64,000 bases of DNA, from positions 124,001 through 188,000 of the forward strand of contig NZ_JBGCCU010000005.1 of NCBI RefSeq assembly GCF_041261445.1, read 5' to 3'. This document shows, piece after piece, positions 12,823 through 42,202 of this stretch (position 1 is its first letter; the number at the start of each line of letters is the position of its first letter). Source of the DNA: Catenulispora sp. EB89 (GTDB lineage: Bacteria > Actinomycetota > Actinomycetes > Streptomycetales > Catenulisporaceae). The translations under genes and the position numbers were made by a program. The notes beneath the pieces are model-generated. The model was not told the DNA's origin. It did not search any database and was given only the letters and a program-made list of their open reading frames with translations.

Positions 12823-12866
12823 GCTTTGCAAGCAGGGGGTTAGGGGTTCGAGTCCCCTTGGCTCCA
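12823..12866 (+). repeat. Internal attachment site: second copy of the tRNA-Ala 3' half
   Basis: Identical to 1719-1737 over 19 bp and to most of the remaining tRNA end. The T stem reads AGGGG/CCCCT instead of GCGAG/CTCGT, so both strands changed and pairing is kept. It is not a whole tRNA because the acceptor 5' strand, D arm and half of the anticodon stem are missing. It marks the right end of the AICE and the left end of the element whose integrase starts 167 bp further on. Confidence 0.85.
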
Positions 12867-12903
12867 CCCTCGAATGTATTTGTCAATACTCGAACAGCTG
12901 GTG

Positions 12904-20764: not shown

Positions 20765-20770
20765 CGCCTC

Positions 20771-21652
20771 ATGTCGGATGCTCCCGCCGGATACGGCGCG
20801 GTCCGTATCCCTGCCGACGTCAGTCGCCCGGACCGCGTACTCGGGCCGGCAACGGCCCGTCAGGTCGCGGTGGTCGCCGGCTCCGCGGCAGGGCTCTGGT
20901 GCGCATGGCTCGGTGTGCGCGCCTGGGTCTCCCCGCTCGCCTTCCTGATCCCGGCCGTGTTCGTTCTGGTGATCGTCGGCGTTGCCGTCTCCACCGAGCG
21001 CGACGGTTTGACCATCGATCGGCTCCTGGCCGCCGCTCTCCGGCAGATGCGGGCACCTCGGCGCCAAGTGATGGCGCCCGAAGGCGTGGTCCCGCCCCCG
21101 GCGTTCCTGGCTGAGGCGCTGGGCAAGTCACCGCGTCCGCCGGCGCCGCTGTCGTTGCCCATCGCGGACCTCGACGATGCTGGCGTGATTGACCTTGGCG
21201 CGGACGGCGCGGCGTTGATGGCCGCTGCCGGCACGGTCAACTTCGGGCTGCGCACCGCCGACGAGCAAGACGTCCTCCTCGGCGGGTTCGCGCGCTGGCT
21301 CAACTCCCTCAGCGGACCGACGCAGATCACGTCTACGAACGCTCCGGCCGACGTGAGCGGCTTCGTTGGAACCCTCCGGGACCAGGCGGCCAGTCTCCCG
21401 CACCCTGCACTCGGTCAGGCCGCGCAGGAGCATGCCGAGTTCCTTGACGGTCTCGGCGCGACCCGCGTTCTGCTGACCCGGAGCATCCACCTCGCGATGC
21501 GCGAGCCAGGCAGGGCAGCGGCCCAGCGTGCCGTCCGCCGTGCCGAGGACGCCGTCAGCCATCTCGCTGCCTGCGAGATCCGTGTCTCGCCACTCGGCCA
21601 CGACGCCGCCTCCGCCGATCTCCGCGCACTGCTCGACCCCTCAGGAGCCTGA
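20771..21652 (+). CDS. PrgI/VirB3-like protein
   Basis: 293 residues. Two adjacent membrane helices near the N-terminus (about residues 34-75) follow a short cytoplasmic start, as in PrgI-family and VirB3 proteins that link the channel to the VirB4 ATPase. The soluble C-terminal part (about 110-290) resembles the N-terminal region of actinobacterial VirB4-type proteins, with a 'GFARWLNSLSGPTQI' segment. Three bases separate it from the VirB4-like gene. Confidence 0.72.
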   Translation: MSDAPAGYGAVRIPADVSRPDRVLGPATARQVAVVAGSAAGLWCAWLGVRAWVSPLAFLIPAVFVLVIVGVAVSTERDGLTIDRLLAAALRQMRAPRRQVMAPEGVVPPPAFLAEALGKSPRPPAPLSLPIADLDDAGVIDLGADGAALMAAAGTVNFGLRTADEQDVLLGGFARWLNSLSGPTQITSTNAPADVSGFVGTLRDQAASLPHPALGQAAQEHAEFLDGLGATRVLLTRSIHLAMREPGRAAAQRAVRRAEDAVSHLAACEIRVSPLGHDAASADLRALLDPSGA

Positions 21653-21654
21653 TC

Positions 21655-25817: not shown

Positions 25818-26677
25818 CCAGCCGGACGCCGACCCGGCCTTTCTCCGTCGCCACCCGGGCCGGCGACCGGCTAACGGAGCGAGACGCCGAGGTGCTGCGG
25901 TTGCTGGCCGAGCACCTGGTGCTCACCGTCGGGCAGCTCGCGGTGGCTCTGTTCCCCGACGCGCGGAAGTGCCGGGGCCGCGTGGCGGTGCTGCGGGCGC
26001 TCGGGCTGGTCGAGACCTTCCGACCTCCGCTCCAGCGCGGATCGTCACAGGCTCACTGCGTCGCCACGGCCCGAACCCTCGAACTGCTCACTGCCGATGT
26101 CGGCGGCTCTCGGCTACGGCGCCGATCGACGCATGACGCGACTGCCATCGCACTACGCCCGGACCTCGGGCACCTGCGAGGCGTCAACGAGGTGTTCTGC
26201 CAGCTACTCGGCCACGCCCGGCAAACTCCCGGGGCTGCACTCGAAACCTGGCGCTCTGAACGTGCCACTGCTCGGGCGCTCGGCACACGACTGCGACCGG
26301 ACGGCTTCGGCCGGTGGCGGCAGGACGACGCCTGGTGCGAGTTCTTCCTCGAATACGACACCGGCACCGAACCGCACGCCCGGCTCCTCGCCAAGCTCAC
26401 CGGGTACGCCGACCTCGCGGAGTCCGCGGGCGTCTCGTGTCCGGTCCTGTTCTGGCTGCCGAACGCGCACCGCGAAAGCCACCTTCACCGGCTCCTCGCC
26501 GACCACCCGCCATGCGTTCCCGTCGCCACGACGCACGGCGATCCATCCCGGACCCACCCCGCCGGCCCGATCTGGCGCCCGGCGTGGTCGCCCACCGTAC
26601 GGCTTCCCCTCGTGTCCCTCGGCGCCTCGGCAGCCCGCCGCCTCGATGTCCCGCAGAGCTCGCACATCCTGCTCTAG
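25814..26677 (+). CDS. Replication-relaxation family protein (Replic_Relax)
   Basis: 287 residues resembling the Replic_Relax family found next to VirD4-like genes in actinobacterial elements. An N-terminal winged helix (about residues 18-85, 'LTERDAEVLRLLAEHLVLTVGQ') is followed by a nuclease-like alpha/beta part ('DAWCEFFLEYDTGTE'). It may take the place of a relaxase at the origin of transfer, though the biochemistry is not established. It starts at a GTG overlapping the coupling-protein stop. Confidence 0.82.
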   Translation: MTSRTPTRPFSVATRAGDRLTERDAEVLRLLAEHLVLTVGQLAVALFPDARKCRGRVAVLRALGLVETFRPPLQRGSSQAHCVATARTLELLTADVGGSRLRRRSTHDATAIALRPDLGHLRGVNEVFCQLLGHARQTPGAALETWRSERATARALGTRLRPDGFGRWRQDDAWCEFFLEYDTGTEPHARLLAKLTGYADLAESAGVSCPVLFWLPNAHRESHLHRLLADHPPCVPVATTHGDPSRTHPAGPIWRPAWSPTVRLPLVSLGASAARRLDVPQSSHILL

Positions 26678-29476: not shown

Positions 29477-30078
29477 CCCCGTGCGCGGTACGGGACCGTA
29501 CCTTGAGGACGGTCCCGTACCGCTACCTGACAAGGATGGCTATCAGGTCGCCATTCTTCGGTCAACGCCCGGATCGTCTCGCGCAACACCAAGTCCTTGG
29601 GCCACAGTGCAATGGAGCATCCCAACTTCTGCGCCCAAACGATCTGCGCAACCGATCGCGGAGGAATAACGGACAGCTCCCAATACGAAATCGCTGATCC
29701 GCTGACGCCAACAAGCCGACCAAAAGTCTTTTGATTCAGCTTCAAAGCCTGGCGACGACGTTTTAGTGGTCCAGCGAGTCGCCGCAGCTCGAAAGAATCC
29801 CCTGTTTCACCCGGAAGCAACCACAGGGGTTCGGGTAACAGCACCTTGCCATCCGGGCCGACGACCACCAGGCACCGATCAAGCCCACCCGACCAGCGCG
29901 TCAGGTGCACCAAGGTGGGATCCAACCGCAGGTTCTCCCACTCGGAGATCGTCCCACCACGAACCCCGACCCTGGATGACAGCGCCGTTTGGGAGATCCT
30001 GGCATCCCGACGAAGAGCCCTTAGCTCGCCAATAACCTGCATGAAGGCATGCTTCGCCGCTTCATCAACTTGCAGCAT
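29473..30078 (-). CDS. Dual helix-turn-helix XRE protein (paralogue 3)
   Basis: 201 residues from ATG 30078, aligned with the starts of the two paralogues; in-frame starts further upstream exist. Two HTHs: 'ISQTALSSRVGVRGGTISEWE' and 'LNQKTFGRLVGVSGSAISYWE'. It shares the architecture and linker ('RCLVVVGPDGKVLLP') of 8511-9095 and 30208-30774 but is more divergent. A longer C-terminal tail ends over the palindrome at 29487-29521. Confidence 0.78.
   Translation of the reverse strand: MLQVDEAAKHAFMQVIGELRALRRDARISQTALSSRVGVRGGTISEWENLRLDPTLVHLTRWSGGLDRCLVVVGPDGKVLLPEPLWLLPGETGDSFELRRLAGPLKRRRQALKLNQKTFGRLVGVSGSAISYWELSVIPPRSVAQIVWAQKLGCSIALWPKDLVLRETIRALTEEWRPDSHPCQVAVRDRPQGTVPYRARG
29487..29521. 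terminator. Palindrome between convergent genes
   Basis: Perfect 13-bp stem GGTACGGGACCGT / ACGGTCCCGTACC with a 9-nt loop, inside the last codons of the leftward XRE gene and just past the rightward gene. The position suits a bidirectional terminator. Related GGnCCGTACC-like sequences also occur near 8840 and 29220, so a protein-binding role is possible. Confidence 0.5.
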
Positions 30079-30207
30079 CACTAGCAGCCTTGTTCGTGAT
30101 GCCGGACTCCATCCAGGCCCTCCACATGCAGCACACAAATCCCGCTTGTGTAGAGCCATGATAGAGCACTTAATCGAGAACCCGGAAATTGTTGCCGTTC
30201 TCAGTCC

Positions 30208-30774
30208 TCATTTAGCGCCCTCATGTGGGCTATAGTCCAGCCATCCCGGCAACCTGGAGCCGGGGCGTCGTAGTCGCGGGATGCCGTCGGCGATGGGCCG
30301 GAGGTCCAGCGAGTAGCCGAGTTGCCGGGCCCAGACGACGTGCGCGATCGGTCGCGGGGGTACGCGGACCAGTTCCCAACGCTGGATGGAGTCGCGGCTG
30401 ACGCCGACCAGCTCGCCGAGCTGCCCCTGAGCCATCCCCAACGCCAGGCGGCGGTTCCGCAAGGGGACAGCAAGCTGGCGCCGCTCAAAGGACTCCCACT
30501 CCTCGCCGGGCCGCTGGCGCAGCGGACCATTGCGCACTTCCCCGTCCCGGCCAATGACCACCAGCCGGCGGTCGAGCTCGCGGGACCATTGGATCAGATG
30601 CCCCAGAGTCGGCTCTACCGCCCCGGTCTCCCATTCGGAGATGGCCCTGCCCCGGACCGGAAGCCCCGCCGACAGCGCGTTCTGGGAGATCCCGACCCCC
30701 AGACGTGCAGTCCGCAAACCTTTGATGATCCGCGCGAGGGCTCGTTCCGCACCGGCGTCGATGTGCAGCGCCAT
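30208..30774 (-). CDS. Dual helix-turn-helix XRE protein (paralogue 2)
   Basis: 188 residues from ATG 30774, which overlaps the TGA of the upstream HATPase gene. Two HTHs ('ISQNALSAGLPVRGRAISEWE' and 'MAQGQLGELVGVSRDSIQRWE'), almost word for word as in the AICE protein at 8511-9095, with 'RVPPRPIAHVVWA' shared exactly. Last gene of a three-gene leftward operon (31661-30208). Confidence 0.82.
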   Translation of the reverse strand: MALHIDAGAERALARIIKGLRTARLGVGISQNALSAGLPVRGRAISEWETGAVEPTLGHLIQWSRELDRRLVVIGRDGEVRNGPLRQRPGEEWESFERRQLAVPLRNRRLALGMAQGQLGELVGVSRDSIQRWELVRVPPRPIAHVVWARQLGYSLDLRPIADGIPRLRRPGSRLPGWLDYSPHEGAK

Positions 30775-31256
30775 CAACGCTTCCAGTCGTCCGTCGTCAT
30801 GCCGACCTTTCGTTTGGCTCTGAACTGGCGGGAGAGATCGGCGGCCGGGCCCTGGGGTCGGGGTATCGCCGGGACCTCGTCGAATGTGATCTCGGCCCAG
30901 ACCGACCGGGCCGTAGCGTCGCCGTCCACGCCCCAGGAAGCGGAAAGCATGGCGACGATGGCCAGGCCGCGCCCGGCCTCGTCCTGCTCACCCGGGACAC
31001 GCAACGCGGGCGTGGAGGGCCCGCCCTGGTCGTCGACGCGCACCACGCAGCGGTTCGCGAACCGAGTCAGCCGTACGACGAACTCCCCTTCAGGCTCGCC
31101 GCTGGCGGTGTGTTTGATGGCGTTGCCGGCCAACTCGTCGGCGACCAGCGCCACGGTGTACGCCGCGTCGCAGTCCCCGAGCACCGCGCAGGCGAAGCGA
31201 CGGACTTCGGCCAGGCACTCGGGCCGGCCGGCGAACTCCTTGTGCCAGATGTCCAC
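30774..31256 (-). CDS. HATPase-type anti-sigma regulatory factor
   Basis: 160-residue GHKL ATP-binding domain protein of the RsbW/SpoIIAB-like class abundant in Streptomyces. N box 'LVADELAGNAIKHT' and G1 region 'VRVDDQGG', then the 'GRGLAIVAMLSASWGV' lid with G2. No kinase partner domain is fused. Placed between a small unknown protein and a dual-XRE regulator with almost no spacing, so the three probably act as one regulatory unit. Confidence 0.88.
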   Translation of the reverse strand: MDIWHKEFAGRPECLAEVRRFACAVLGDCDAAYTVALVADELAGNAIKHTASGEPEGEFVVRLTRFANRCVVRVDDQGGPSTPALRVPGEQDEAGRGLAIVAMLSASWGVDGDATARSVWAEITFDEVPAIPRPQGPAADLSRQFRAKRKVGMTTDDWKR

Positions 31257-31259
31257 GGC

Positions 31260-31661
31260 TCACCCACCCCCTTTGGGCGGCCGGGTGTTCCACCGGCAGC
31301 GGATCAGCGTCTCGGTGTGCTCGGCGACCTGGAGCGCGGCCTTGGCCGGACTACTTCCGGTCTCGTGCATGACCAGGCACGCCAGTGCGGTCTGCAGACC
31401 CCGGTGGTAGCCGTGCCACTCACTCTGATCGCGCCGCGCCTCATCCCCGATCTGGAAGTACTCGCCGGCGTCGAAGGTCAACGTCGCCGCTAGCCCGAGG
31501 ACCGCCAGGTAGCTGCTGGAATGGCCCGCGGCGAGCAGTCGGCGCTGGAACTCCGCCTCTGCCGGCGTCGCAGCGATGCCGAACATCGCCGGCACCCGGC
31601 CGACCACCCGGCCGTCTCTGTGCTCGGCCAGAAAGGCCCTGATGTCCTCCAGCCGCCTCAT
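31260..31661 (-). CDS. Hypothetical protein upstream of the HATPase
   Basis: 133 residues from ATG 31661 (an in-frame start at 31787 would add 42 Arg-rich, non-conserved-looking residues). Mostly helical, without recognised domain or transmembrane segment. Its stop is three bases from the HATPase start. Likely part of the same signalling unit. Confidence 0.6.
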   Translation of the reverse strand: MRRLEDIRAFLAEHRDGRVVGRVPAMFGIAATPAEAEFQRRLLAAGHSSSYLAVLGLAATLTFDAGEYFQIGDEARRDQSEWHGYHRGLQTALACLVMHETGSSPAKAALQVAEHTETLIRCRWNTRPPKGGG

Positions 31662-32060
31662 GCCGGACCCGCCAGCTGCGTCGGCACTTCGAAGCCGCAC
31701 GGCGCGGCTCCAGCCCGAACTGACAGTTCGGGCTTCCTGGCTATGCAGGCGAGGACACAGGCGGGCTCGTCCACGCTGTTGGGCCATGGTTGAACGTGCG
31801 CGGGCTCGGTGGCCTCGCGCACCACACGCCGCCGGGAGTTAGCCGCGACAGTGGGCTGTATCTGGGTATCCACGGGTCCCTCGTTACGGAATCGGAGCTG
31901 TTCGGGCAGATGTGAGGTGCGCCCGGACCAGTGAACGTCCGACCCGATATCGACGAACAGGAAAACGCGGTTCGTTTGTGGTCTCGGCGAATCGGAAAAC
32001 TTGACGATTCCTTTACCCAGCAGCAAGCGCTCCTGGTCATCACGGCGATACGTTGCGTAC
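31662..32060. other. Divergent promoter region
   Basis: 400 bp separating the leftward HATPase operon from the rightward XRE-TPR/GNAT unit. No supported gene; a leftward frame across it has no protein character. A TTGACG at 32001 could be a -35 element for the rightward gene. Confidence 0.4.
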
Positions 32061-33290
32061 ATGTCGGGGAACCGAGCTCTACGCCAGAAGGCGGCTGACC
32101 TGGGGTTCACTCATGACGAACTGGCGCGGCGGGTGAACCTTCAAATCCAGGAGCTCACCGGAAAACCGGGAACAGTATCAGAGCGCACCGTCCACAACTG
32201 GCTGGCCGGCGCTACTCGGTGGCCCCCTGCCAAAATGCGGTTAGCGTTAGGTGCAGTATTCGGATGTGCCCCTGAACATCTCGGATTCCACCCGCCGGAT
32301 GGTGTCGTGAAGCGACGCGAGTTCCTCGCCGCCACGGCCAGCACCACCGTGGCCGTTGCCGGACCGACACAGCGACGGATCGGGGTCGGGGACGTCCAAC
32401 GTCTCCAGACCAAATTTGCCGACGTCATCGCCCGCGACCACCTCCACGGCGGCCGAAAAGGCATCGAGACGGACGCTCTGGCCCTGGCGGAGAAGGCCAT
32501 GGCACTTCAGCAAGTTGGCAGCGCGAGTCAACGGGTGCGTGGTCTGCTGTACGCCACTGCCGCAGCGTTCACCTCCAGTGCCATGTGGGCTGCGATCGAC
32601 GGGCGCCGCTTCGACGCCGCCCAAGACCACCACCGGCGCGCCTCCAGCCTCGCGGCGATGTCCGGGGATCCGACTATCGCCTTCCGCATCTGGTCGCACG
32701 CCGGCAGCCTGTATCGGCATATGGGCCTCGTCATTGACGCACAGGCTGCCAACGACGTCGCCCGCAGGCTAAGCATCACCCGCTGCGACCCGTTGTTCGC
32801 TTCCCTCGGCCATGCCCGGCACGCCGCGATCCTAGGCCTGACTGGCGACGCGAACGCGGTGCGGCGCGCCATTGACCAAGCGCAGGGAGCGCTAGATCAG
32901 GCTGACCCGGCCGCCGACCGGCCCACGTGGATCACCAACCACTACGACCAGGCCGAGCTTGACTCACTTGCCTTGGCTGCACACCTTGCCCTCGGCTCGT
33001 TCGAAGAAGCCGAGGCCCGTGCTCACCGCAGTCTGGCCGTACTGCGCCCGCACATGAAGCGCAGCAGGGGAATCACCACCGCTCGGTTGGCGAGAGCCCA
33101 ACTCGGTCAAGGCGACATCGACCAAGCCGTTCACACCGCGATGTCCGTACCGAAAGATCAAGCCGCCCACCCTCGTGTGGCCGGCATGCTTGGCAGCTTC
33201 GGCCGGAGTGTGCACGAACTCGCAGGTGCCGACAGCAACGCTCGAACGTGGGACCAGTGGGTCAACGACACCCGGAGGAACAGCACATGA
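32061..33290 (+). CDS. XRE regulator with TPR-like repeats and a Tat-like motif
   Basis: 409 residues from ATG 32061 (TTG at 32001 is an alternative start). N-terminal HTH 'LGFTHDELARRVNLQIQ' with 'TVSERTVHNWLAGATRWP' as recognition region. At about residue 82 'VKRREFLAATASTTVAVAG' mimics a twin-arginine export signal, a feature of many Streptomyces regulators of this family whose meaning is unclear. The remaining 300 residues are TPR-like helical repeats. Its stop overlaps the start of the GNAT gene. Confidence 0.82.
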   Translation: MSGNRALRQKAADLGFTHDELARRVNLQIQELTGKPGTVSERTVHNWLAGATRWPPAKMRLALGAVFGCAPEHLGFHPPDGVVKRREFLAATASTTVAVAGPTQRRIGVGDVQRLQTKFADVIARDHLHGGRKGIETDALALAEKAMALQQVGSASQRVRGLLYATAAAFTSSAMWAAIDGRRFDAAQDHHRRASSLAAMSGDPTIAFRIWSHAGSLYRHMGLVIDAQAANDVARRLSITRCDPLFASLGHARHAAILGLTGDANAVRRAIDQAQGALDQADPAADRPTWITNHYDQAELDSLALAAHLALGSFEEAEARAHRSLAVLRPHMKRSRGITTARLARAQLGQGDIDQAVHTAMSVPKDQAAHPRVAGMLGSFGRSVHELAGADSNARTWDQWVNDTRRNST

Positions 33291-33835
33291 GCACCGGCGA
33301 CATCGAGCTGCGCCGATTCAACGACTTGGCACCAGCACGTCAGGCGCTGATCGACGTATACGCCGACGTCCGGGCGCCCCTACTTCACCTGCCGAACTAC
33401 CGCGTCGAGGTATTCGCCGAACGCCTTGACCGCCACGCTCACGAAGCCGGCTGGGAGGCCGTCCTCGGCTACGACAACGGCGAGGCAGTGGGCTACGCCT
33501 ACGCCAACACCCTGAGCGCCGATGACCGCTGGTGGTCTCGCATGATCGAACCACTGCCCGAGGGGTACACCGCCGTGCCGACGATGGCGGTCAAGGAGAT
33601 CGGCGTCCGCACACCGTGGCGCGGCATCGGAGTCGCCCGCCGCATCCACGACGAATTGCTCGCATGGCGTTCCGAAGAACGCGCAACCCTGCTGGTCAAT
33701 CCGCTCGCGGGCGACGGCAAGGTCGAACGGCTCTACGCGACCTGGGGCTACACCGTCTTCAACAGCCAGCAACCTAGCCCGGAATCCCCCAAGCTCGTAG
33801 CGATGATCCGACCTCGGACCCTTCAGGCTCTGTGA
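33287..33835 (+). CDS. GNAT-family acetyltransferase
   Basis: 182 residues from ATG 33287 (Shine-Dalgarno CGGAGG; ATGA overlap with the XRE gene). GNAT fold with the acetyl-CoA loop 'RTPWRGIGVARRIHDELL' (Q/R-x-x-G-x-G/A) and terminal strand 'KVERLYATWGYTVF'. Substrate unknown. Co-transcribed with the XRE-TPR regulator. Confidence 0.85.
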   Translation: MSTGDIELRRFNDLAPARQALIDVYADVRAPLLHLPNYRVEVFAERLDRHAHEAGWEAVLGYDNGEAVGYAYANTLSADDRWWSRMIEPLPEGYTAVPTMAVKEIGVRTPWRGIGVARRIHDELLAWRSEERATLLVNPLAGDGKVERLYATWGYTVFNSQQPSPESPKLVAMIRPRTLQAL

Positions 33836-34269
33836 CTTGTCCAGCCCCAACAACTCCCTCAGAAGGAACAGGATGTGTGTACCGCAGTAACCGGCGTTGC
33901 GACGGCGATCCGCGAGCAGCTCGAATGGGCACGGAGGTGATAGGGATCAGTTGCATCGACCGCATGGCCGACTCGACATTCGCCAAGGGTTTCGCCGTGC
34001 CGACTGAGATCCGAGTGACCGAAGTCCTTCCTGTTAGTGCGCTTCGACTCCCACCCCGGGCGAGGTGATCCAACTACGAATTGCCCCTCGGCCCGAGCGG
34101 CTGTTGCGCATCGAGGTCACTGACATGTGGTCGCCAGCGACGACGTGGATGGGCGGGGCTGTTTCTGATCCGCTCGGTCGCAGTCGGCTCGGCCGGCGCC
34201 GATCTCCAGAGGCAAGGCGCTATAGGTCCACCTCGAAGACGTCGCGAGACGATAGGAGATGCGACGAAG
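33836..34269. other. Leader region of the nucleoside cluster with three tiny frames
   Basis: 434 bp before the radical SAM gene. Three consecutive short frames are present: GTG 33875-33940 (21 codons, after AGAAGGAACAGG), ATG 33964-34068 (34 codons) and GTG 34065-34361, which overlaps its predecessor but runs into the radical SAM gene. None matches a known family. They may be remnants of one gene broken by frameshifts or a leader peptide. The operon promoter is expected here. Confidence 0.4.
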
Positions 34270-35790
34270 ATGACGAGTACAACGGCTGTGATCCTGGACT
34301 GCTTCACCGTCGAGCCCTCCGGCCTGGGCGTTCCGCCCTACCTGTCGAGCTACGTCCGTGACGCCTACTCGGCACTGCGCCGGGCATTGCCCGAGGCGGA
34401 CGTCCGCTATGTGACGATCGACGACGTCCGCTGGCACCTCAACAGCGGCCAGCCGCATGTTCCCGCGCCGGCCTCGGACCCGCTGACCTACGCTGCTACC
34501 GCGAACCGGGAGACGGCGCTGAAGCTGTTGCACGACGCCGCCATAGTCGTGGTGGTTGGTGGGGACAAGGTGCCCTCGGTGCATCTACACGCGGTCAATG
34601 GCTCCCTGCCGGAGATCGCCAGGGCATTGGCCTGTACCCGCGGCAAGACGATGCTGTTGGGGCCGCTATCGGCCTACGCCGTCTCCGAGCCGGCCGAGTT
34701 CGCCGGACTCTTCGATGCGGTCCACACTCACACCCTGACCTCGGAGACTTTGGATCGCAGCACGTTCGCCGCAGCCGACTATGCAGCGCAGCGGGCTGAC
34801 CGTGAATCCTATGTAGGCCTGGTCGAGCAGCTGAGCTGGGAACCGATCGCCGAGATCGAGCTCTACCGCGGCTGCACCCGCCGCCGCTTCTGCGACTTCT
34901 GCAACGAGCCGGTCAAGGCTGCGAACGTCGCCTTCCGCACCGTCGAGGATGTCCTTCACGAGATCGGACTCCTGGCGCGTGCCGGGGTGCGCAATTTCCG
35001 TCTGGGAATGCAGACCTGCTTCTTCTCCTACCAGAACCGGGATGAGAAACAGATCGAGGCTCTGCTGGCCGGAGTCCGTGAAACCGTTCCGGACCTGGAA
35101 GTACTCCACATCGACAATGCCGACCCGCTCGCCGTTGCTTCGCCAGCCGGCGGTCGGATCGCGACGCTGGTCGCGAAGTACTGCACCGAGGGCAACTGCG
35201 CCCCGATGGGCATCGAGTCCTTCGACCCGGACGTCATCGAGCGCAACACCCTGACCTGTACGGGGGAGATCCTGCTGCGGGCTGTGGAGAACGTGAATAC
35301 CGCTGGCGCCGCACGAGGGCCCGGTGGGCTGCCCATGCTGCTTCCTGGCCTGAACCTCATCTACGGACTGCCGGGGGAGACTCACGGCACCCATCTGGCG
35401 AACCTGACGTGGCTCAGCAGAATTCTGGCGGCCGGGCTGATGTGTCACCGCACCAACGTCCGCCAGGCCCGCGCCTATCCCGGCACCCCGCTGGCCGCGC
35501 TTGGCGAAATGGAGCCACCGCCGTCGGCGGCGCACTTCAACACCTGGAAGGCGGACCTGGACGCGGTTTGGGACCTGCCGATGAAGCAGCGCGTCTACCC
35601 GACCGGGCTGGAAGTTCCGGGACTCCACGCCTTCTTCGTCAACGACGCTGGCACGTGGTTCCGTCGGCTCGGCTCCTACTCCATCCAGATCGTCGAGCCA
35701 GGCAGTACCGTCGCTCTCTACACGAAGGCGGACCTGCAAGTGACCGGGCACGCACCGCGGTGGGTCTACGGTGAACGCCATGGGCTGTGA
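34270..35790 (+). CDS. Radical SAM enzyme with CX5CX2C cluster motif
   Basis: 506 residues from ATG 34270, behind AGGAG; an upstream in-frame start would add 63 low-complexity residues. Residues about 1-185 form a Rossmann-like N-terminal domain, possibly a vestigial cobalamin-type fold without an evident binding His motif. At 202-211 is 'CTRRRFCDFC', spaced CX5CX2C rather than the usual CX3CX2C, and downstream 'MGIESFDPDVIERN' and 'GLNLIYGLPGET' are typical radical SAM barrel motifs. The reaction is unknown. First gene of the nucleoside cluster; its stop overlaps the next start. Confidence 0.85.
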   Translation: MTSTTAVILDCFTVEPSGLGVPPYLSSYVRDAYSALRRALPEADVRYVTIDDVRWHLNSGQPHVPAPASDPLTYAATANRETALKLLHDAAIVVVVGGDKVPSVHLHAVNGSLPEIARALACTRGKTMLLGPLSAYAVSEPAEFAGLFDAVHTHTLTSETLDRSTFAAADYAAQRADRESYVGLVEQLSWEPIAEIELYRGCTRRRFCDFCNEPVKAANVAFRTVEDVLHEIGLLARAGVRNFRLGMQTCFFSYQNRDEKQIEALLAGVRETVPDLEVLHIDNADPLAVASPAGGRIATLVAKYCTEGNCAPMGIESFDPDVIERNTLTCTGEILLRAVENVNTAGAARGPGGLPMLLPGLNLIYGLPGETHGTHLANLTWLSRILAAGLMCHRTNVRQARAYPGTPLAALGEMEPPPSAAHFNTWKADLDAVWDLPMKQRVYPTGLEVPGLHAFFVNDAGTWFRRLGSYSIQIVEPGSTVALYTKADLQVTGHAPRWVYGERHGL

Positions 35791-36475
35791 CAGCACCCTG
35801 CGCCTGTTGCGAGCCGAGCGCGCACGCCTCAATGGCCTGAAGCACGTAGGCGTGTTGGTTCCGTGGGCGAACACGATCGTAGAGACCGAACTGCCGCGGC
35901 TGGCCGCCGATCGCCTGGTATTCCACTATGCCCGCCTGGTCCCGGCAGGTAGATCGACAGCGCTGGACGAAACGTTCCTCGACGGCCTGCGCGGGGCCGT
36001 CCCAGACGCGTTGTCGTCCCTTTCCCGAATCCAGCTGGCTGGCGCGCTGCTGGCTTGCACGTCGGCCGGGTTCACCGCCGAGGACTCCACAGCTGGCACG
36101 ACGTCCGCGTTCGCGGCGATCTTGCAGGCCCTCCAGCGGCTGAAGGTTCGCCGCATTGCGCTAGCAGCGCCGTATCCGCACGCCACTGCCGTCACCGAAG
36201 CCGCGGCGTTCGCCTCCGCCGGAATCACCGTCACCGGCCTGGCCAGCCTTGGCCAAGCCGACGACTACGATCAGATTGCCGCAGGTACCAGCAGGGCTCT
36301 CATCGACCGCCTCAGCGCCACAGAGCTTGCGGATGCCTCTGCGCTGGTGCTGTCCTGCACCAACTGGCCCACCCTTGACCTGGTAGCCGACCTGGAGTTC
36401 ACGCTCGGGATGCCGGTGATCTCGTCCAACCTGGCCCTCGCGATCACCGCCTGCACGATTGGAGACCAGCCGTGA
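35780..36475 (+). CDS. Asp/Glu racemase-superfamily enzyme (maleate isomerase/arylmalonate decarboxylase-like)
   Basis: 231 residues from ATG 35780 (GTG 35771 also possible); either start overlaps the radical SAM stop. Two symmetric catalytic Cys positions are visible: 'LLACTSAGF' and 'VLSCTNWPT', with the family end motif 'PVISSNLALA'. Such enzymes use the two Cys for racemisation, isomerisation or decarboxylation of dicarboxylates. In this cluster it may process a side-chain precursor. Its stop overlaps the next GTG. Confidence 0.82.
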   Translation: MGCDSTLRLLRAERARLNGLKHVGVLVPWANTIVETELPRLAADRLVFHYARLVPAGRSTALDETFLDGLRGAVPDALSSLSRIQLAGALLACTSAGFTAEDSTAGTTSAFAAILQALQRLKVRRIALAAPYPHATAVTEAAAFASAGITVTGLASLGQADDYDQIAAGTSRALIDRLSATELADASALVLSCTNWPTLDLVADLEFTLGMPVISSNLALAITACTIGDQP

Positions 36476-37320
36476 CCGTCAAGCCGAAACAGCCGCGCAA
36501 ACGGGTCGCGAAGCCGACGGCGTTCAGCCCGAAGTTCGCTGACAGTCTCTTTGACCGGGTAAGCCGGATCGCTTCGCTGCCTCAGGTCAAGCAGGCAGTA
36601 GAAGCCAACCACGACGCCAATCGTTGGTGGCCGCTGACGATCACGGACCCGAGGATGCGGATGCTGGCCGCCGGCTGGTCGACGCGGATCAGCAACTCCA
36701 TGGTCTCTTCCTACGCCGCGGTGCTCGCCGAAGCCGATGCACTCGGCTTCGACAAGCTCACTGCGCTGGAAGACGAGGAACTTGCCAAGATCGTCCACCC
36801 GCTGGGACTTCGCGACAGCCGCATCGCCTACCTGCGTTCCTTAGACAAGTTCGTCGGTAGACTCGCCGACGATGGAACAGCTGTCGATCAGCTCGGCTCG
36901 GACGAGCTGATTTCCCGGATCGCCGCCGAAGTTGACCAGGCGTCCTTCAAGGTCGGGCAGTGCGCCGCGCTCTATGTCGGCGGCTACCACTGCGGTGTCA
37001 TCCCTGTCGACTCTGGCATGGTCGACAAGCTCGCCCCGTTCTTCGGGATCACGCTGCCCTCGGGGTCGGCTGCTCACGAGACCATGCGGAACCTGCTCCA
37101 ACAGGGCGTGACCGCCCGGACCGATGACTATCGGCAGCTGATCGTCGATCTTGACTATGCGGTTACCATCGCTCCCGGCGTTGTGCCGACCTGGTGGACG
37201 CACCTGGTGCTCATCTACTTCAAGCGCTCCTACCTGAACCGGTCGCATCCGGATCTCTGCACTAAGCGGCCTGGCTGTTCGGCGGTCGTTGCCTGCCAGC
37301 ACGCCGCCGCCGTGCCCTGA
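36472..37320 (+). CDS. HhH-GPD superfamily protein, probably not a classical DNA glycosylase
   Basis: 282 residues from GTG 36472. Helix-hairpin-helix and Asp region align by eye with endonuclease III: 'VGQCAALYVGG' at the hairpin and 'VIPVDSGMVDKL' with the conserved Asp at 180. The Lys of bifunctional glycosylases falls on Cys164, and the C-terminal cluster loop has only three Cys (263, 269, 275). Iyer, Aravind and colleagues described HhH-GPD relatives in base-hypermodification operons as predicted glutamyl/putrescinyl-thymidine pyrophosphorylases. The neighbouring kinases and deoxyribosyltransferase make that kind of role plausible. This is inference. Confidence 0.65.
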   Translation: MTVKPKQPRKRVAKPTAFSPKFADSLFDRVSRIASLPQVKQAVEANHDANRWWPLTITDPRMRMLAAGWSTRISNSMVSSYAAVLAEADALGFDKLTALEDEELAKIVHPLGLRDSRIAYLRSLDKFVGRLADDGTAVDQLGSDELISRIAAEVDQASFKVGQCAALYVGGYHCGVIPVDSGMVDKLAPFFGITLPSGSAAHETMRNLLQQGVTARTDDYRQLIVDLDYAVTIAPGVVPTWWTHLVLIYFKRSYLNRSHPDLCTKRPGCSAVVACQHAAAVP

Positions 37321-37362
37321 CCTTCGCACTTGCCATACAACGCAGTGGGGGATCGCTCTGCC

Positions 37363-38172
37363 ATGCCCAGACTTGATGTGATCGGCAATATCTCCATTGA
37401 CCACACTCGCTACCCCGATGGTCGCACCATACGACTGATCGGCGGCGCTGCGCTGCATACCGCCGCTGCGGCACACCGAGCTGGCTTGCCGGCCGCGCCG
37501 GTCTCTGTCGTCGGCACAGATCTGGCCCACCTGCCTGACGATCCGCGCCTGACCGCGCTGGACTGGAGCGGCATCACGGTCGTCGATGGCCGGTCCGCCC
37601 AGTTCACCATCGAATACGACACGCTCGGATGCGTCAGTTCCCTGGCAGCCGAATACGGGGTCGCTGACGGCTTGACCAGGCACGGTCTGGCATGGATAGA
37701 CGCTCACACGGCCGACGCGGTCCACGTCTGCTGCCGCCGGCCTCTGGACGCCGCCCCGGTCTTGGCGGCCCTGGCCGAGGCTGGCTGGCGGTTCAGTCTC
37801 GATTTCTTCGTCTCGAGCGCAAAGCAGATGATCGACCAGGCTGCGCCGTTCTTGCCCGAGGCTGTCGCGGTGTTCGTCAACGCCGCCGAACATGCCCTGC
37901 TGACCGATGTGGTTCCATCCCGACAGCTGCGGCTGGTCGTGGTGAGCGACGGTGCCAGACCCGTCCGGCTGCTGCGCCGGGGACGGCTCGCGGCGCAGGC
38001 CAGGCCTCCCCAGACCACTGCCGTTGAAGTGACCGGCGCTGGTGACACTCTGGCCGGAACCTTCCTTGCCGCTGTTGCAGCCGGAGCGAGCGACGGTGTC
38101 GCGCTCCGTCAGGCAGTAGCTGCCGCGACTGACCACGTCGGCGCCCCGGCCCTTGCTCTTGAAGACCGTTGA
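37363..38172 (+). CDS. PfkB-family (ribokinase-like) sugar or nucleoside kinase
   Basis: 269 residues from ATG 37363. N-terminal substrate motif 'GGAALHTAAAAHRAGL' and C-terminal anion-hole/catalytic motif 'EVTGAGDTLAGTFLAA', with the catalytic Asp in GAGD. PfkB enzymes phosphorylate ribose, adenosine and related sugars. Here the substrate is likely a nucleoside or deoxyribose derivative. The chain is slightly shorter than ribokinase. 42 bases after the HhH gene. Confidence 0.88.
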   Translation: MPRLDVIGNISIDHTRYPDGRTIRLIGGAALHTAAAAHRAGLPAAPVSVVGTDLAHLPDDPRLTALDWSGITVVDGRSAQFTIEYDTLGCVSSLAAEYGVADGLTRHGLAWIDAHTADAVHVCCRRPLDAAPVLAALAEAGWRFSLDFFVSSAKQMIDQAAPFLPEAVAVFVNAAEHALLTDVVPSRQLRLVVVSDGARPVRLLRRGRLAAQARPPQTTAVEVTGAGDTLAGTFLAAVAAGASDGVALRQAVAAATDHVGAPALALEDR

Positions 38173-38202
38173 CCGTGCACGTCAGCAGAAGGGACTCACC
38201 CG

Positions 38203-39147
38203 ATGCTCTACGTAGCGCACCGCCTGTTCGCTGCCCATGACCGAGCTTTAGGCGCACAGACCGCACGCATCCTGGGAGAGACGGCCGGCGACGACAATGT
38301 GTTCCTGCCGTTCTGCGACACCGACGAAGAGGACTTGGTCGCCGACATCAAAGGACTCCGCCTGTTCGAGCTGGACTCGGCCCGGTTGAGGTACCTGTCG
38401 GGAATGCTGGCCCTGCTGCACGGGCCCAGCCTGGACGACGGCGTCTGCATGGAGATCGGATTCGCCGCCGCCCTCGGCGTGCCGGTGGTCGCGTTGACGA
38501 CCGACTTCATCACCTATGCAGCCACGCCCGACGGGCCCAGTTGGTCGTTCCCGGACCCGCTGATCGACTTTCTAGCAGCTGATGTGATCAGCGCCCGCAC
38601 GCTTGGAGCAGCACCCGAGGGGCGGTCCGGACGCTTCGCCGATTTTGAACACCGCAACCGCGCCCAGCTCGTTGAAGCCGTGCACCTTGCATGCCAGCGG
38701 CTGCTGGAACTCACCCGACCCGCTCAGGTCAACGATCAAAAGCCGGCACGGGAGCAGCGGCTTGCCTTCGTCGAGCCCTCGCCCTATGGCGCTCGGGCCG
38801 ATGGGGACGAGATCGGCGCCAAGCTCCATGAGCTCGGCTACCAGGTCGTCACTGCCAACCGCTTGTCCGTCAACGACCGGCTCGACGGCGCTGCGGCGGA
38901 CTGGGCTACTGCAATTTCTGCGGACCTGCTGGTCGTGGATGTGTCCGGTCCCGAAGCCCCGCCCGGGGCTGCCGCGATGATCGGTGCGGCTGTGGCGAGA
39001 GGCCGTACCGTCCTGGCCTACAACCCGGCCCCGGCCTGGACCTTCGCCCACGGGCGGGAACCGAACTGGCGCAACCTGATGATCCAGTACGGGGTCAGTG
39101 GCATGTTCGCCACGTCCGCCGAGATCAAAGACCTGGTCCGCGAGTGA
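38203..39147 (+). CDS. Nucleoside 2-deoxyribosyltransferase, tandem domains
   Basis: 314 residues, ATG 38203 with AGAAGGGA upstream. The N-terminal domain has the family signature 'DDGVCMEIGFAAALGVPV' with nucleophile Glu84. The C-terminal domain repeats the fold ('VVDVSGPEAPPGAAAMIGAA') but lacks the Glu, so it may be a structural or substrate-binding half. These enzymes swap or hydrolyse the base of 2'-deoxynucleosides. Its stop overlaps the GTG of the next gene. Confidence 0.85.
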   Translation: MLYVAHRLFAAHDRALGAQTARILGETAGDDNVFLPFCDTDEEDLVADIKGLRLFELDSARLRYLSGMLALLHGPSLDDGVCMEIGFAAALGVPVVALTTDFITYAATPDGPSWSFPDPLIDFLAADVISARTLGAAPEGRSGRFADFEHRNRAQLVEAVHLACQRLLELTRPAQVNDQKPAREQRLAFVEPSPYGARADGDEIGAKLHELGYQVVTANRLSVNDRLDGAAADWATAISADLLVVDVSGPEAPPGAAAMIGAAVARGRTVLAYNPAPAWTFAHGREPNWRNLMIQYGVSGMFATSAEIKDLVRE

Positions 39148-39641
39148 ACGTCGACGAGCTGGCTGCCTACCGCGTTGTGGCCCTGGACGGCTGCGACGGC
39201 ACCGGCAAGACGTCTCTGGCCAACCTGCTAGCCACCAACCACGGATTTACCATCGTTCATTCTCCGCGTACTCCTGACCAGGTCGATTTGGCAGCCCGCT
39301 ACCGCAGTCTGATCAGCGGTGACGGACGGTTGGTCATGGACCGGTGCTTCATCAGTGAACTGGTCTACGGCCCCATTCACCGTGGACGTAGCCGGCTGGC
39401 ATTGGAAGACGCCCTCGACCTGGCCGAAGCAGTGACCGCGCATAGCGGAGTGATGGTCCACCTGACTGCTCCGCCGCAGGTCATACAGCATCGGCTACTC
39501 GAGCGTGACGGGCCGCCGCTGACTCCCATCGAGGAGATCACCGAACTGGTCGACGCATACGGACGGCTGTTCGACACTGTCGGTGCCCGTGTTCAAGTCG
39601 TCAGAATCGATACCGCACAGGTCACAGAACCGTTCCGGTGA
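39144..39641 (+). CDS. dTMP-kinase-like P-loop nucleotide kinase
   Basis: 165 residues from GTG 39144. Walker A 'LDGCDGTGKTSLA' (residues 14-26) and the Asp-Arg motif 'VMDRCFISELVYG' of thymidylate kinase-like proteins; 'RLLERDGPPLTP' may form the lid. It is shorter than housekeeping dTMP kinase (about 210 residues), so it is a specialised member, as P-loop kinases of modified dNMPs in phages are. Translationally coupled to the deoxyribosyltransferase. Confidence 0.82.
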   Translation: MNVDELAAYRVVALDGCDGTGKTSLANLLATNHGFTIVHSPRTPDQVDLAARYRSLISGDGRLVMDRCFISELVYGPIHRGRSRLALEDALDLAEAVTAHSGVMVHLTAPPQVIQHRLLERDGPPLTPIEEITELVDAYGRLFDTVGARVQVVRIDTAQVTEPFR

Positions 39642-39729
39642 CACGTTTTTCATTTCGGCCCGGCGTCACTTCTGCCCCGCTAAGCTCACGCGCGACTGGA
39701 ACGACGTCGACACGAGCCGTGGAGCAGCC

Positions 39730-40035
39730 TTGGACATCCGTGACGCCCAGAAGCGAGCCTGGGATAACAAGGTAGCCAAAGGCTTCAACACCAGTGACGT
39801 CGCACTTGAGTTCGGGCTGCTCACGGCTGAAGTGGGCGAGGCCTTCACCGCCTGGCGCAAGCGCAAACCAGACTTCGGCGAAGAGCTCGCGGACATCGCG
39901 CTGTACGTCATGGCGCTGGCTGAGATGAATGGAATCGACCTCGATGAAGAGATCGATTCAAAGATCCACAAGAACGCGAAACGTGTCTACATCAAAGACG
40001 AGCACGGCACCCCTCACCGCGTCGTCGAGGGCTGA
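39730..40035 (+). CDS. MazG-like nucleotide pyrophosphohydrolase
   Basis: 101 residues from TTG 39730, where GTGGAG gives the best ribosome site; an in-frame GTG at 39583 would overlap the kinase. All-alpha NTP pyrophosphatase motif: 'LLTAEVGEAFTAW' and 'FGEELADIALYVM', i.e. E-x2-E ... E-x2-D for Mg binding. MazG enzymes hydrolyse (d)NTPs to monophosphates, either cleaning the pool or supplying a dNMP substrate. Last gene of the cluster; an 88-bp gap suggests it may also have its own promoter. Confidence 0.82.
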   Translation: MDIRDAQKRAWDNKVAKGFNTSDVALEFGLLTAEVGEAFTAWRKRKPDFGEELADIALYVMALAEMNGIDLDEEIDSKIHKNAKRVYIKDEHGTPHRVVEG

Positions 40036-40189
40036 GCGGTCATTTCAGCGGCCGATCCTCGGCCGTCAGAGCGTGTTTTCGAACATTTGACCTGCGGTGA
40101 TATCGGGTGACGGTGAAGCGAACGTTCGCGCCTGCGTCGCCGTGACGGAGATGAGAACGCTCGGGTTCCGCGTCTGCGATGATCAAGCC

Positions 40190-40603
40190 ATGGCCGACCT
40201 GACCGATCTCGCGCGGGAGTTGTGTCCCGGTCCTGGTGAAGCCGGGCATCAGTTACCCGTGCCGTTGCGCGACTTCATCGAGACGCTGACGTTCGCGGAT
40301 GTCGATGAGATTCGGGCGATGGTCGACGAGTTCGTGATCAACGTCGGCCCGCTGCCGGTATGGGCCCGTAACCTGGCCTATCGACTCGCGTGTCTGCAGC
40401 GACCTGACAATGCCGCGTTGCTGCGCGAAGCCAGCATCGATCTGTGGATGCACGGCCCGGACTGGGACAGTATCGCCGGGGAACTGGGTCGTCGCGCTGA
40501 CACGATCGATGGCGGAGCGGCGACTGGAGTGGTTTCAGGCGGCGGCGCCGGCCAGCCGTCGGGTCATCAGCCGAATGGCGGCCCAAGTGATGAGGGCTTC
40601 TGA
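40190..40603 (+). CDS. Hypothetical protein with a C-terminus probably altered by an IS fragment
   Basis: 137 residues from ATG 40190. The first 110 residues look like a real helical soluble protein ('LRDFIETLTFADVDEIRAMVDEF' region). The last 25 are Gly-rich and lie antisense to the IS5-type transposase remnant that begins at 40535, so the original C-terminus was probably lost when that fragment arrived. No recognised domain. No clear ribosome site. Confidence 0.5.
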   Translation: MADLTDLARELCPGPGEAGHQLPVPLRDFIETLTFADVDEIRAMVDEFVINVGPLPVWARNLAYRLACLQRPDNAALLREASIDLWMHGPDWDSIAGELGRRADTIDGGAATGVVSGGGAGQPSGHQPNGGPSDEGF

Positions 40604-40672
40604 TACTTCGGGGAAGCGTTCGTAGTCGCAGGCGTTGCGGCGTGTGTTCAAGGTCCACGCGTTGCCGACAAC
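40535..40672 (-). pseudogene. Remnant of an IS5-type transposase (C-terminal 45 codons)
   Basis: The leftward frame ending at 40535 translates to 'NACDYERFPEVSEALI' followed by 'WAAIRLMTRRLAG', the characteristic end of actinobacterial IS5-group DDE transposases. The catalytic regions are missing and no terminal inverted repeat could be paired, so this is a small leftover. It shows past IS activity next to the nucleoside cluster. Confidence 0.7.
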
Positions 40673-40767
40673 CGCGCACTCAAAACGCCTACTTGACGTG
40701 GAAGTCCGGACGCCTCGCGTCGTGTCTGGCCCCCGGTGTGCCCGTGCTCGTTGGCGGGGCGTCGGTA

Positions 40768-41058
40768 TCAGAGGATGCCGCACCAGGCGTTGATCCAGGC
40801 CTTCCATGAGCCGTCGCTCTGCTGCGCGGCCGATCCCGAGCTGAGGATGGGCGAGCAGCCGAGGTCCGAGGCGTTTTGGGCGGCGTCCAGGTGGGCCGCG
40901 GACGCGGTGGCGCCGGTGCCCCAGAATTCCCTGATGGTGGCGGCGCTCACTCCGCCGCCGGCCGGGGACGCAGCCTGCGCCGACGCCGGGGCGCCGGTGA
41001 GTGTCACGGCGGTGATGAGGGTTGCTGCGACTACAAGGGTGTTCCTCAGCTTGATCAC
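40768..41058 (-). CDS. Small secreted protein, function unknown
   Basis: 96 residues from GTG 41058, with a strong GGAGGT at 41063-41068. A Sec signal peptide ('LVVAATLITAVTLTGAPASA') is cleaved after 'ASAQA', leaving about 70 residues with two Cys ('LGCSPIL' and the C-terminal 'WCGIL') that could form one disulfide. No known domain. Likely released or wall-associated. Confidence 0.7.
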   Translation of the reverse strand: MIKLRNTLVVAATLITAVTLTGAPASAQAASPAGGGVSAATIREFWGTGATASAAHLDAAQNASDLGCSPILSSGSAAQQSDGSWKAWINAWCGIL

Positions 41059-41308
41059 GGGCACCTCCGGCAGATGGGGACAAATCCCTGGCAGCATCGC
41101 ATTGGTCGAGCCTGTATGCCAGGGCTCTGATTCAAATTCTCGGCGGAGTGGTTCGGGGCGCGGGTGGCTCCGGCGCGGTCAGTCTGGGTGTATCAAGATT
41201 CACGCGCAGGTCATGTGCGTCTCGTGGCGCTCGGGCCCGCGTCAGGTGAATACGCGAGAACCCCGCAACGCCAGCGCCGTGACCAGCTATTTCAGGATGC
41301 TATACGGG

Positions 41309-42202
41309 CTACGCGGCAACCGTTGCGAGGCGCAGCTGGGCTCGGACACGTTCGAAACCAGCACGCCCAACGGGCTGGAACCCGACCTGGCCTCGCTGGC
41401 TGTCGGTACTCGTGCAGTCCCGGCACAAGCCAGCCGTTCGCAGGGGAGCACCGCAGTCGGCGCATTCGTGCCACTCGACGCGCGGCCCGCGCGGTGGCAC
41501 CTCGGTCGGCATCTTAGCCACGAGCCGATGCCGCAGGAGCGCAGCCGCCTGGTGTACGTGTCCGGGGAGCCCAGCAGTCAGCGCGGTGGTCACGTGGCCC
41601 GGCGTCATGCCCTTGGCCAGCCAGGCATCGACGAGCGGCGCTAGGCTCGCTGCCTCGCTCGCAGCGAGGTGAAGCCGTGGCTCGTCTCGTCCGAGACGAG
41701 CGAGAAGAGAGATCGATCGTGAAGACGCTTCTCCCTCCCGCCCCGCCGATTCACCGCTTGCGGGGGGCTCGTTGGTGCCTTCACCGGGAGGAAGGGAATC
41801 TTTGACCCCTGACTCTTTGGTTTTGGTTCCTGACCCTCCGCCGCCTGGTTGACCGGTTCCCGGAGCGATGGTCGCCGGTTCCACCTGCGCTGATGCTCCG
41901 TCGCGGTCCGCGAAGACTTCTACGCGGGTCCGGATCCGGCCCTCGTCATCGCGAGACTTGATGCGGGTCAGGTACCCGCCAGACTCCAGCTCGTGAAGTG
42001 CCCGCGATACGGTGCCACGGCCCTCGACTGACTTGTTCGCTAGCGTCTTCACGTCCTCGCGGGCGCCGTCAGGGAGCGAAAGCATGTACGCCAGCAGGCC
42101 ACGGGCCGCGAATGAGAGCGCGTGATCACGCGCCGTCGCGTTCGGAAGCTTCGTAAAATACCCGGTTTGCCGGGTACCATGGATACGCATTGGGAGCGTC
42201 AA
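41309..42202 (-). CDS. Winged-helix replication/partition-type protein with C-terminal zinc ribbon
   Basis: 297 residues (ATG 42202; ATG 42190 also possible). An N-terminal winged helix (about residues 20-95, 'RGTVSRALHELESGGYLTR') resembles plasmid replication-initiator and helix-turn-helix proteins of actinomycete elements. A low-complexity Gly/Ser/Glu linker follows, then a helical region and a zinc ribbon 'CADCGAPLRTAGLCRDC'. It probably binds element DNA; whether it starts replication is not shown. Separated by 122 bp from the Tad operon end. Confidence 0.65.
   Translation of the reverse strand: MTLPMRIHGTRQTGYFTKLPNATARDHALSFAARGLLAYMLSLPDGAREDVKTLANKSVEGRGTVSRALHELESGGYLTRIKSRDDEGRIRTRVEVFADRDGASAQVEPATIAPGTGQPGGGGSGTKTKESGVKDSLPPGEGTNEPPASGESAGREGEASSRSISLLARLGRDEPRLHLAASEAASLAPLVDAWLAKGMTPGHVTTALTAGLPGHVHQAAALLRHRLVAKMPTEVPPRGPRVEWHECADCGAPLRTAGLCRDCTSTDSQRGQVGFQPVGRAGFERVRAQLRLATVAA

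Follow-up and report, generated by a model that had tools for sequence, protein, structure and literature searches.

We describe here a cluster of seven genes from Catenulispora sp. EB89, whose genome assembly amounts to 11.9 Mb in 70 contigs. The whole stretch analyzed, hereafter the window, comprises 64,000 nucleotides (contig NZ_JBGCCU010000005.1, positions 124,001 to 188,000), and the seven open reading frames (ORFs) are all present on its + strand between positions 34270 and 40035, in the single direction and the order that a first-pass annotation, made from the sequence alone, had given. They are named by letters as follows:

34270–35790, + strand: gene A, a radical S-adenosylmethionine (SAM) enzyme with a CX5CX2C cluster motif and, in its model, a MiaB/RimO/MgmA-like fold (Radical_SAM, PF04055, 35.4 bits)
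35771–36475, + strand: gene B, a member of the maleate isomerase/arylmalonate decarboxylase/Asp-Glu racemase superfamily, of maleate-isomerase type, with both cysteines (Amdase, PF17645, 46.7 bits)
36472–37320, + strand: gene C, a putative HhH-GPD-fold N-glycosylase-like protein of a family without a name (predicted fold)
37363–38172, + strand: gene D, a PfkB (ribokinase/adenosine kinase) family kinase (PF00294, 54.3 bits)
38203–39147, + strand: gene E, a tandem nucleoside 2-deoxyribosyltransferase (NDT) (Nuc_deoxyrib_tr, PF05014, 61.6 bits)
39144–39641, + strand: gene F, a small P-loop (deoxy)nucleoside monophosphate kinase-like protein (PHROG 761, 1e-21)
39730–40035, + strand: gene G, a MazG-like nucleoside triphosphate pyrophosphohydrolase, its start set from the length of relatives (PF12643, 38.0 bits)

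The family assignments of the first-pass annotation are borne out by these matches, as the Pfam scores of A, B, D, E and G lie above their cut-offs (29.5, 25.9, 25.8, 28.8 and 27 bits, respectively). Gene C reaches 16.6 bits with the HhH-GPD model, below the cut-off of 26.2, yet its predicted fold, which is that of EndoIII (Z 15.9), confirms the assignment. Similarly, the protein described there as small and deoxythymidine monophosphate kinase-like (F) has no Pfam match above cut-off but does match the PHROG family named 'thymidylate kinase'. The Asp/Glu-racemase-like label of B holds for the superfamily, the closest relatives being maleate isomerase and arylmalonate decarboxylase instead. As for the four overlapping junctions that had been claimed, those of A with B, B with C and E with F are found, whereas the one between F and G is lost with the starts used here: it requires the MazG start at 39583, while the start at 39730 leaves 88 bases between the two genes. 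The latter is preferred because it fits both the relatives of about 100 residues in plasmid records and a 100-residue ORF of a divergent locus (L042, see below). For gene D, an alternative start is possible at 37330.

The seven genes are one conserved unit. Using gene C as the entry point, we assembled 43 loci, 38 of them from a scan of one genome per species that catches exact short peptide patterns only, so that the list is incomplete. All seven genes occur in the same order in 34 of the 43 loci (28 with G forward and 6 with G inverted), including one locus in which A, B and E are shortened (L043) and another in which E and F form one ORF (L016). The other nine comprise three loci whose contigs end inside the cluster (L025, L030 and L047), three divergent non-actinobacterial versions, and three with C alone, among which L003 and L045, both counted, have identical ORFs and look like the same place. 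The order A-B-C-D-E-F-G is also that of the three Streptomyces plasmid records examined, out of four carrying C. With starts picked by a script, some of which may be wrong, genes A and B overlap in all 34 full loci, B and C in 33, E and F in 29 and C and D in 13, while D and E (0/34) and F and G (0/28) never do.

Since these loci were all reached through C, a test was run starting from A. The searches with A and with C each scored a handful of top candidates in every genome. At E 1e-50 or better, A has close relatives in 9 of the 391 genomes of the order, eight of which are exactly the genomes that bear C; A and C lie about 2 kb apart in each of these eight, and the ninth holds a 132-residue fragment only. 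Moreover, over 32 full loci (all except L016 and L043), the pairwise protein distances of the seven genes correlate with coefficients of 0.58–0.86, compared with at most 0.43 after shuffling of labels (200 shuffles per pair). The first-pass annotation had proposed a search for the gene order and had named homologues that never co-occur as the finding that would speak against a cluster; the order was recovered in most loci and the outcome was the opposite of such a scattering.

Some of the collected loci deserve a separate comment. The cluster of Streptomyces philanthi (L043, 8852–13468) looks decayed, with A, B and E ORFs of 130, 141 and 230 residues, and in Streptomyces albipurpureus (L041, 9935–10951) the HhH gene stands by itself, is broken and has a transposase-like ORF nearby, so it is probably what remains of a cluster. 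In Hakubella (L003/L045, 352–2198), an HhH relative with 37% identity begins 23 bases after a DruA-family gene (PF14236, 1.5e-80 in L003), and none of the other six genes is present in the 3.6 and 8.4 kb of sequence examined at the two loci.

Protein C, annotated as 'hypothetical protein' in three of the four plasmid records and without annotation at this place in the fourth, appears from its model (pLDDT, i.e., predicted local distance difference test score, 90.5) to be an HhH-fold N-glycosylase-like protein. Structure prediction, which the first-pass annotation had suggested for both this protein and A, gives for C an all-helical fold of EndoIII type (1orn; root-mean-square deviation (rmsd) 3.4 over 201 aligned residues), with further matches to the 3-methyladenine glycosylase MagIII (Z 15.1) and to human Qng1 (Z 11.0 over 231 residues). 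Asp180, at the catalytic place after the hairpin, is found in 27/27 sequences, and Lys160, which we take to resemble the lysine of OGG1, in 25/27. Both glycines of the G-h-G hairpin are present in only 7/27, the second position being mostly Ser, and the iron-sulfur motif of EndoIII and MutY (C-X6-C-X2-C-X5-C) occurs in none of the 27. The family has instead a conserved stretch of its own, NHDxNRWWP. With a median pI of 8.57 (range 5.55–11.37, values that depend on the script-chosen starts), C is more basic than any of the other six proteins. A Pfam scan up to E 1 returned HhH-GPD and BLTP1_N only; Pfam includes models for HhH proteins of the aGPT-pyrophosphorylase type.

The three cluster cysteines of A are kept in 16/16 aligned rows. 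Its model (pLDDT 87.2) matches RimO (Z 25.4), MiaB (Z 24.3) and MgmA (9ccb, Z 24.1), the last with the smallest rmsd among the matches shown (3.1, 20% identity over 351 residues); OxsB (Z 17.6) and the viperins (Z about 11.6) are further away. In spite of this closeness of fold, A reaches no NCBIfam cut-off. Its identification as MgmA, the glutamine C-methyltransferase of methyl-coenzyme M reductase, was rejected because it scores 18.4 against the TIGR04014 cut-off of 360. A methylthiotransferase of MiaB/RimO type was likewise discarded, with a TIGR00089 score of 16.4 against 251 and a single nearly invariant N-terminal cysteine, which implies that the second cluster of MiaB is absent. No viperin family is among the NCBIfam or PADLOC matches listed for A, and no cobalamin riboswitch was found in the seven loci scanned (of the 43) or in window positions 30000–42000. 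A haloarchaeal radical SAM relative, with 30% identity across 98% of A, is encoded on a Natronorubrum plasmid (L009, 13980–15707); it has a weak C-terminal HHH match, is related to TIGR04013, and is followed by a TRAM-domain gene.

The remaining proteins retain the residues of their families. B has maleate cis-trans isomerase (4fq7, 1.4e-22) as its best solved relative and conserves C96 and C196, together with one Asn and one Tyr, in 15/15 sequences, scoring at the same time far under the equivalog cut-offs of EutA and arylmalonate decarboxylase. In D, the GG pair, Asp13 and Asp228 of the GAGD motif are kept in 14/14, and the solved relatives include sugar and adenosine kinases. E, the sole NDT match in the genome of the window, shows two matching stretches at E up to 1. 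Its N-terminal domain aligns with solved NDTs (7m5h) and keeps the nucleophile E84 and its acidic partners D58 and D79 in 17/17, while the C-terminal domain, judged by eye, is without a Glu at the aligned place and has a stretch, RNLMIQY, conserved in 17/17, whose N291 presumably resembles the asparagine that a neighboring subunit provides in bacterial NDTs, N123 of the Lactobacillus leichmannii enzyme. We infer that E has one active site per chain. The best solved relative of F is yorR (2axp, 8e-14), followed by a deoxynucleoside kinase (8puu, 4.1e-9) and thymidylate kinase; G16, K22, D66, R67 and S71 are present in 15/15. Finally, G keeps the metal motif EXXE...EXXD (E34, E37, E52 and D55) in 13/13 and has deoxycytidine triphosphate pyrophosphatase and MazZ among its solved relatives.

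The three divergent versions, found in Bacteroidetes (L040), Dojkabacteria (L042, a metagenome-assembled genome (MAG) of 0.7 Mb) and an unclassified bacterium (L044), have A, B, C and F in common at about 20–43% identity. L040 and L042 both have D as well, whereas a search of the two for E was negative; G was found in the second of them and not in the first. The contig of L044 stops soon after F. Several genes are fused in these and other loci: a single protein combines C with F in L040, a single ORF of 473 residues combines E with F in Actinacidiphila oryziradicis (L016, 11652–13073), and D of L042 carries an additional P-loop-like domain, the counterpart of which in L040 is a gene of its own (match at 1e-19). 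These fusions count for a joint pathway. In addition, the first gene of both L042 and L044 encodes a HAD protein for which NT5C, the 5'(3')-deoxyribonucleotidase family, is the sole Pfam family scoring above cut-off; among solved structures, the L042 protein is closest to enzymes of this kind (4e-5). The NDT of the actinobacterial branch and the deoxynucleotidase-like gene of the divergent one indicate deoxynucleotides from two sides, a pairing that hints weakly at the substrate but is the strongest such hint in the analysis.

Five of the proteins (C to G) belong to families whose substrates are bases, nucleosides, nucleotides or sugars, and the most likely role of the enzyme set is to make or recycle a modified DNA building block. 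The deoxynucleoside theme of the first-pass annotation is upheld by an NDT with intact acidic residues, a P-loop protein like thymidylate or deoxynucleoside kinases, a preserved MazG motif and the NT5C-like gene of two divergent loci. More specifically, we give about an even chance to an intracellular pathway that starts from a normal deoxynucleotide and alters its base to yield a non-canonical product. In this pathway, G would hydrolyze a deoxynucleoside triphosphate to the monophosphate, and C would release the base, either from the nucleotide, as Qng1 does, or from DNA. The match between C and Qng1, whose substrate is given in PMC11592518 as queuosine 5'-monophosphate, provides a precedent for action on a free nucleotide. 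A and B might then assemble or remodel the base or a side chain on it, and E could transfer the new base to deoxyribose; D would phosphorylate the resulting nucleoside to the monophosphate and F the monophosphate to the diphosphate, with the host Ndk completing the triphosphate. In the divergent versions, the deoxynucleotidase-like protein and the second kinase may supply and re-phosphorylate nucleosides in place of E. We can only guess in which order the steps run, which base is involved and whether the product enters DNA, whereas the substrates are inferred to be deoxynucleotides and the product probably remains in the cell, since no transporter is among the seven genes.

A number of observations weigh against this proposal. 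The NDT, PfkB and P-loop kinase families also contain members with other substrates. The nearest folds of A (MiaB, RimO and MgmA) act on tRNA or proteins, and the match of C to Qng1 has a Z score of 11, when helical folds scoring under about 13 may match by arrangement alone. As E was not found in L040 and L042, the core can do without base transfer by this enzyme. The NT5C scores, 27.1 and 27.5 bits for a cut-off of 24.8, are weak and come from two loci only.

The first-pass annotation had read the cluster as a pathway to a modified deoxynucleotide for DNA or to a nucleoside natural product and had connected it with base hypermodification of the phage type. The single unit and the deoxynucleoside theme of that reading stand; the phage connection is not supported. 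Compared with the PHROGs families up to E 1, C gives no match, neither A nor C matches any of 50,697 phage records at the sensitivity of these searches, and no structural match of C to viral proteins was found at E 0.001 or better. In viral contigs, none of A, B, C and E was detected by a scan that needs exact short peptides and may miss relatives. F and G do match PHROG kinase and pyrophosphatase families, the sequence searches of phage and viral collections having covered A, B, C and E. With no phage relative found, phage-type hypermodification is left without direct support, and the likeness to it is one of logic, not of homology beyond the superfamily level.

The distribution of the cluster is sparse. 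C occurs in 8 of the 391 genomes of the order and in none of the 59 other near genomes. In a sample of the phylum, it matches 4/396 genomes at E 0.001, of which two are strong (the window genome and one at E 7.9e-45) and two, with E near 5e-4, were judged too weak to count. In the Dojkabacteria (1/239) and Bacteroidetes (1/247) groups, the one match is in each case the seed itself. The hosts identified are mostly actinomycetes (Streptomyces, Actinoplanes and Nonomuraea, for example), and the cluster is carried on linear plasmids (three Streptomyces plasmid records examined). A tree of A with 30 rows, in which the window stands beside the Streptomycetaceae, roughly tracks actinobacterial families, which suggests an early origin of the set within the phylum, followed by frequent loss; recent transfer between families is not shown by this tree. 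A gene family that looks like recombinases lies in the flanks of 8/40 loci, and 3 of the 93 flanking proteins scanned match Phage_integrase. We regard the operon as patchily inherited and partly mobile.

In the window itself, upstream of the cluster, a tRNA-Ala gene (1690–1763) adjoins an integrase (1854–3080) and an FtsK-like gene (4917–6425), and a second copy of the 3' half of this tRNA (12823–12868) lies beside another integrase (13033–14427), an arrangement also seen where integrated elements stand in tandem. Further on, between this integrase and gene A, positions 19091–26677 hold TrbL-like (below cut-off), TraG-like, coupling-protein and replication-relaxation genes, so the cluster may lie in a conjugative element. 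A right-hand attachment site was searched for and not found, which leaves the borders of the element holding the cluster undefined. A GNAT-like ORF directly upstream of A (33248–33835) matches PHROG 29377 at 1e-38 and has no relative in the other 42 loci at E 1e-4. The flanks contain one family of TPR-type regulators in 18/40 loci and a short-chain dehydrogenase in 13/40, and a TPR-like regulator stands upstream of the cluster, outside the seven-gene core:

32001–33290, + strand: an NsdA-family TPR-like regulator (NF053720, 230 bits, cut-off 75)

An NsdA-family regulator also adjoins the cluster in L012 (364.9 bits), and the gene in the window is likely to be a local regulator.

This regulator, the predominance of actinomycete hosts, the plasmid location and the presence of OxsB among the folds near A would fit a pathway in which the same enzymes produce an antibiotic or signal of deoxynucleoside type for eventual release, while C and G serve in self-protection. 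We nevertheless consider such a nucleoside natural product unlikely, as neither a transporter nor a resistance gene is among the seven, the flanking genes vary between loci, and a Dojkabacteria MAG of 0.7 Mb is an improbable antibiotic producer; in addition, the fusion of C to F in L040 indicates that C is not an accessory. A patchy and partly mobile distribution would also suit an antiviral system with a logic like that of the prokaryotic viperins, in which A and B would make a toxic or chain-terminating deoxynucleotide, the kinases would activate it, and C and G would protect the host. In this regard, the HhH gene of L003 is the neighbor of a DruA-family gene, some restriction and Wadjet-type profiles are found among the 93 flanking proteins, and F matches the PADLOC profiles PDC-M51B (3e-7) and VakA (5.3e-7), which is a weak point in favor. 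However, most of the defense profiles in the flanks match one protein each (among the best 25 of 87 families, to which both statements on the flanks refer), and A is nearer to MiaB, RimO and MgmA than to the viperins, so that a defense role seems distinctly improbable. A also has a weak match to PDC-M51A (E 0.067), which we discounted as a sign of defense: this profile matches 101/198 genomes and 11/14 control genomes and is thus a general radical SAM profile. More doubtful still is a role in repair or nucleotide-pool sanitizing, with C excising a damaged base, G and E clearing damaged triphosphates and nucleosides and A reversing or processing the damage: the EndoIII fold, the conserved Asp and OGG1-like Lys, the basic character of C and the genes resembling recR and RNase H that lie, as judged by eye, near the cluster in the Dojkabacteria MAG would fit it, but the kinases, the isomerase and the radical SAM enzyme are not obviously required for sanitizing, the set is rare, unlike housekeeping repair, and the full pair of hairpin glycines is kept in only 7/27 sequences and the iron-sulfur four-cysteine motif in none.

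Returning to the conversion of a deoxynucleotide inside the cell, a more far-reaching version would be a cell-encoded route of base exchange in the DNA metabolism of bacteria, independent of phages, in which an HhH enzyme acting on nucleotides removes the base, radical chemistry and isomerization rebuild it, a two-domain transferase restores it to deoxyribose and a deoxynucleotide not known before is supplied to the cell and possibly to chromosomal DNA, with a deoxynucleotidase version in distant bacteria, the 0.7 Mb Dojkabacteria MAG among them. We regard this full scheme as rather unlikely.

It is informative to compare the cluster with the systems that it most resembles. Phage thymidine hypermodification employs a 5-hydroxymethyldeoxyuridine DNA kinase, an amino acid:DNA transferase and radical SAM enzymes, and thus shares with the present set a P-loop kinase for bases or nucleotides, a protein of glycosylase fold and, in some cases, a radical SAM enzyme. 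The seven genes, in contrast, include neither a hydroxymethylase nor a TET enzyme, no phage relatives of A and C were found, and an NDT, a PfkB kinase and a maleate-isomerase-like protein are present instead. The oxetanocin pathway, whose OxsB acts on deoxynucleotides, likewise combines a radical SAM enzyme on a mobile replicon with deoxynucleotide chemistry, but OxsB is only a distant fold match of A and a phosphohydrolase of OxsA type is absent from the seven. In queuine salvage, Qng1 (DUF2419) has an HhH-GPD-like fold and, as described in PMC11592518, works on a nucleotide and not on DNA. Qng1 uses a ribonucleotide, however, and C differs from it by its own NHDxNRWWP stretch, sharing 8% identity over the 231 aligned residues with an rmsd of 5.5. 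A has the fold of MgmA, MiaB and RimO across nearly its whole chain, but it lies far below the cut-offs of their families and has the single conserved N-terminal cysteine already mentioned. B resembles maleate cis-trans isomerases (4fq7 and 2xec) in both catalytic-type cysteines and in the Asn and Tyr, and scores low with the equivalog models of EutA and arylmalonate decarboxylase.

Enzymatic tailoring of a nucleotide is already known as a kind of chemistry, but to our knowledge this seven-gene composition has not been known before, and no description of it was found in the literature searched, a search that most subscription papers lay outside and that does not prove absence. The unit joins a radical SAM enzyme, an enzyme of maleate-isomerase type and possibly a new HhH nucleotide glycosylase, in a size that a laboratory Streptomyces could receive. 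Whether the product were a DNA base, an antibiotic or an antiviral nucleotide, finding it would be a discovery in each case. It would represent a new kind of system if the product enters chromosomal DNA or if C proves to be a deoxynucleotide glycosylase. Non-canonical deoxynucleotides are, as far as we know, found mainly in phages; if free-living bacteria had a conserved operon for such a nucleotide, this would add a new branch to DNA or nucleotide chemistry.

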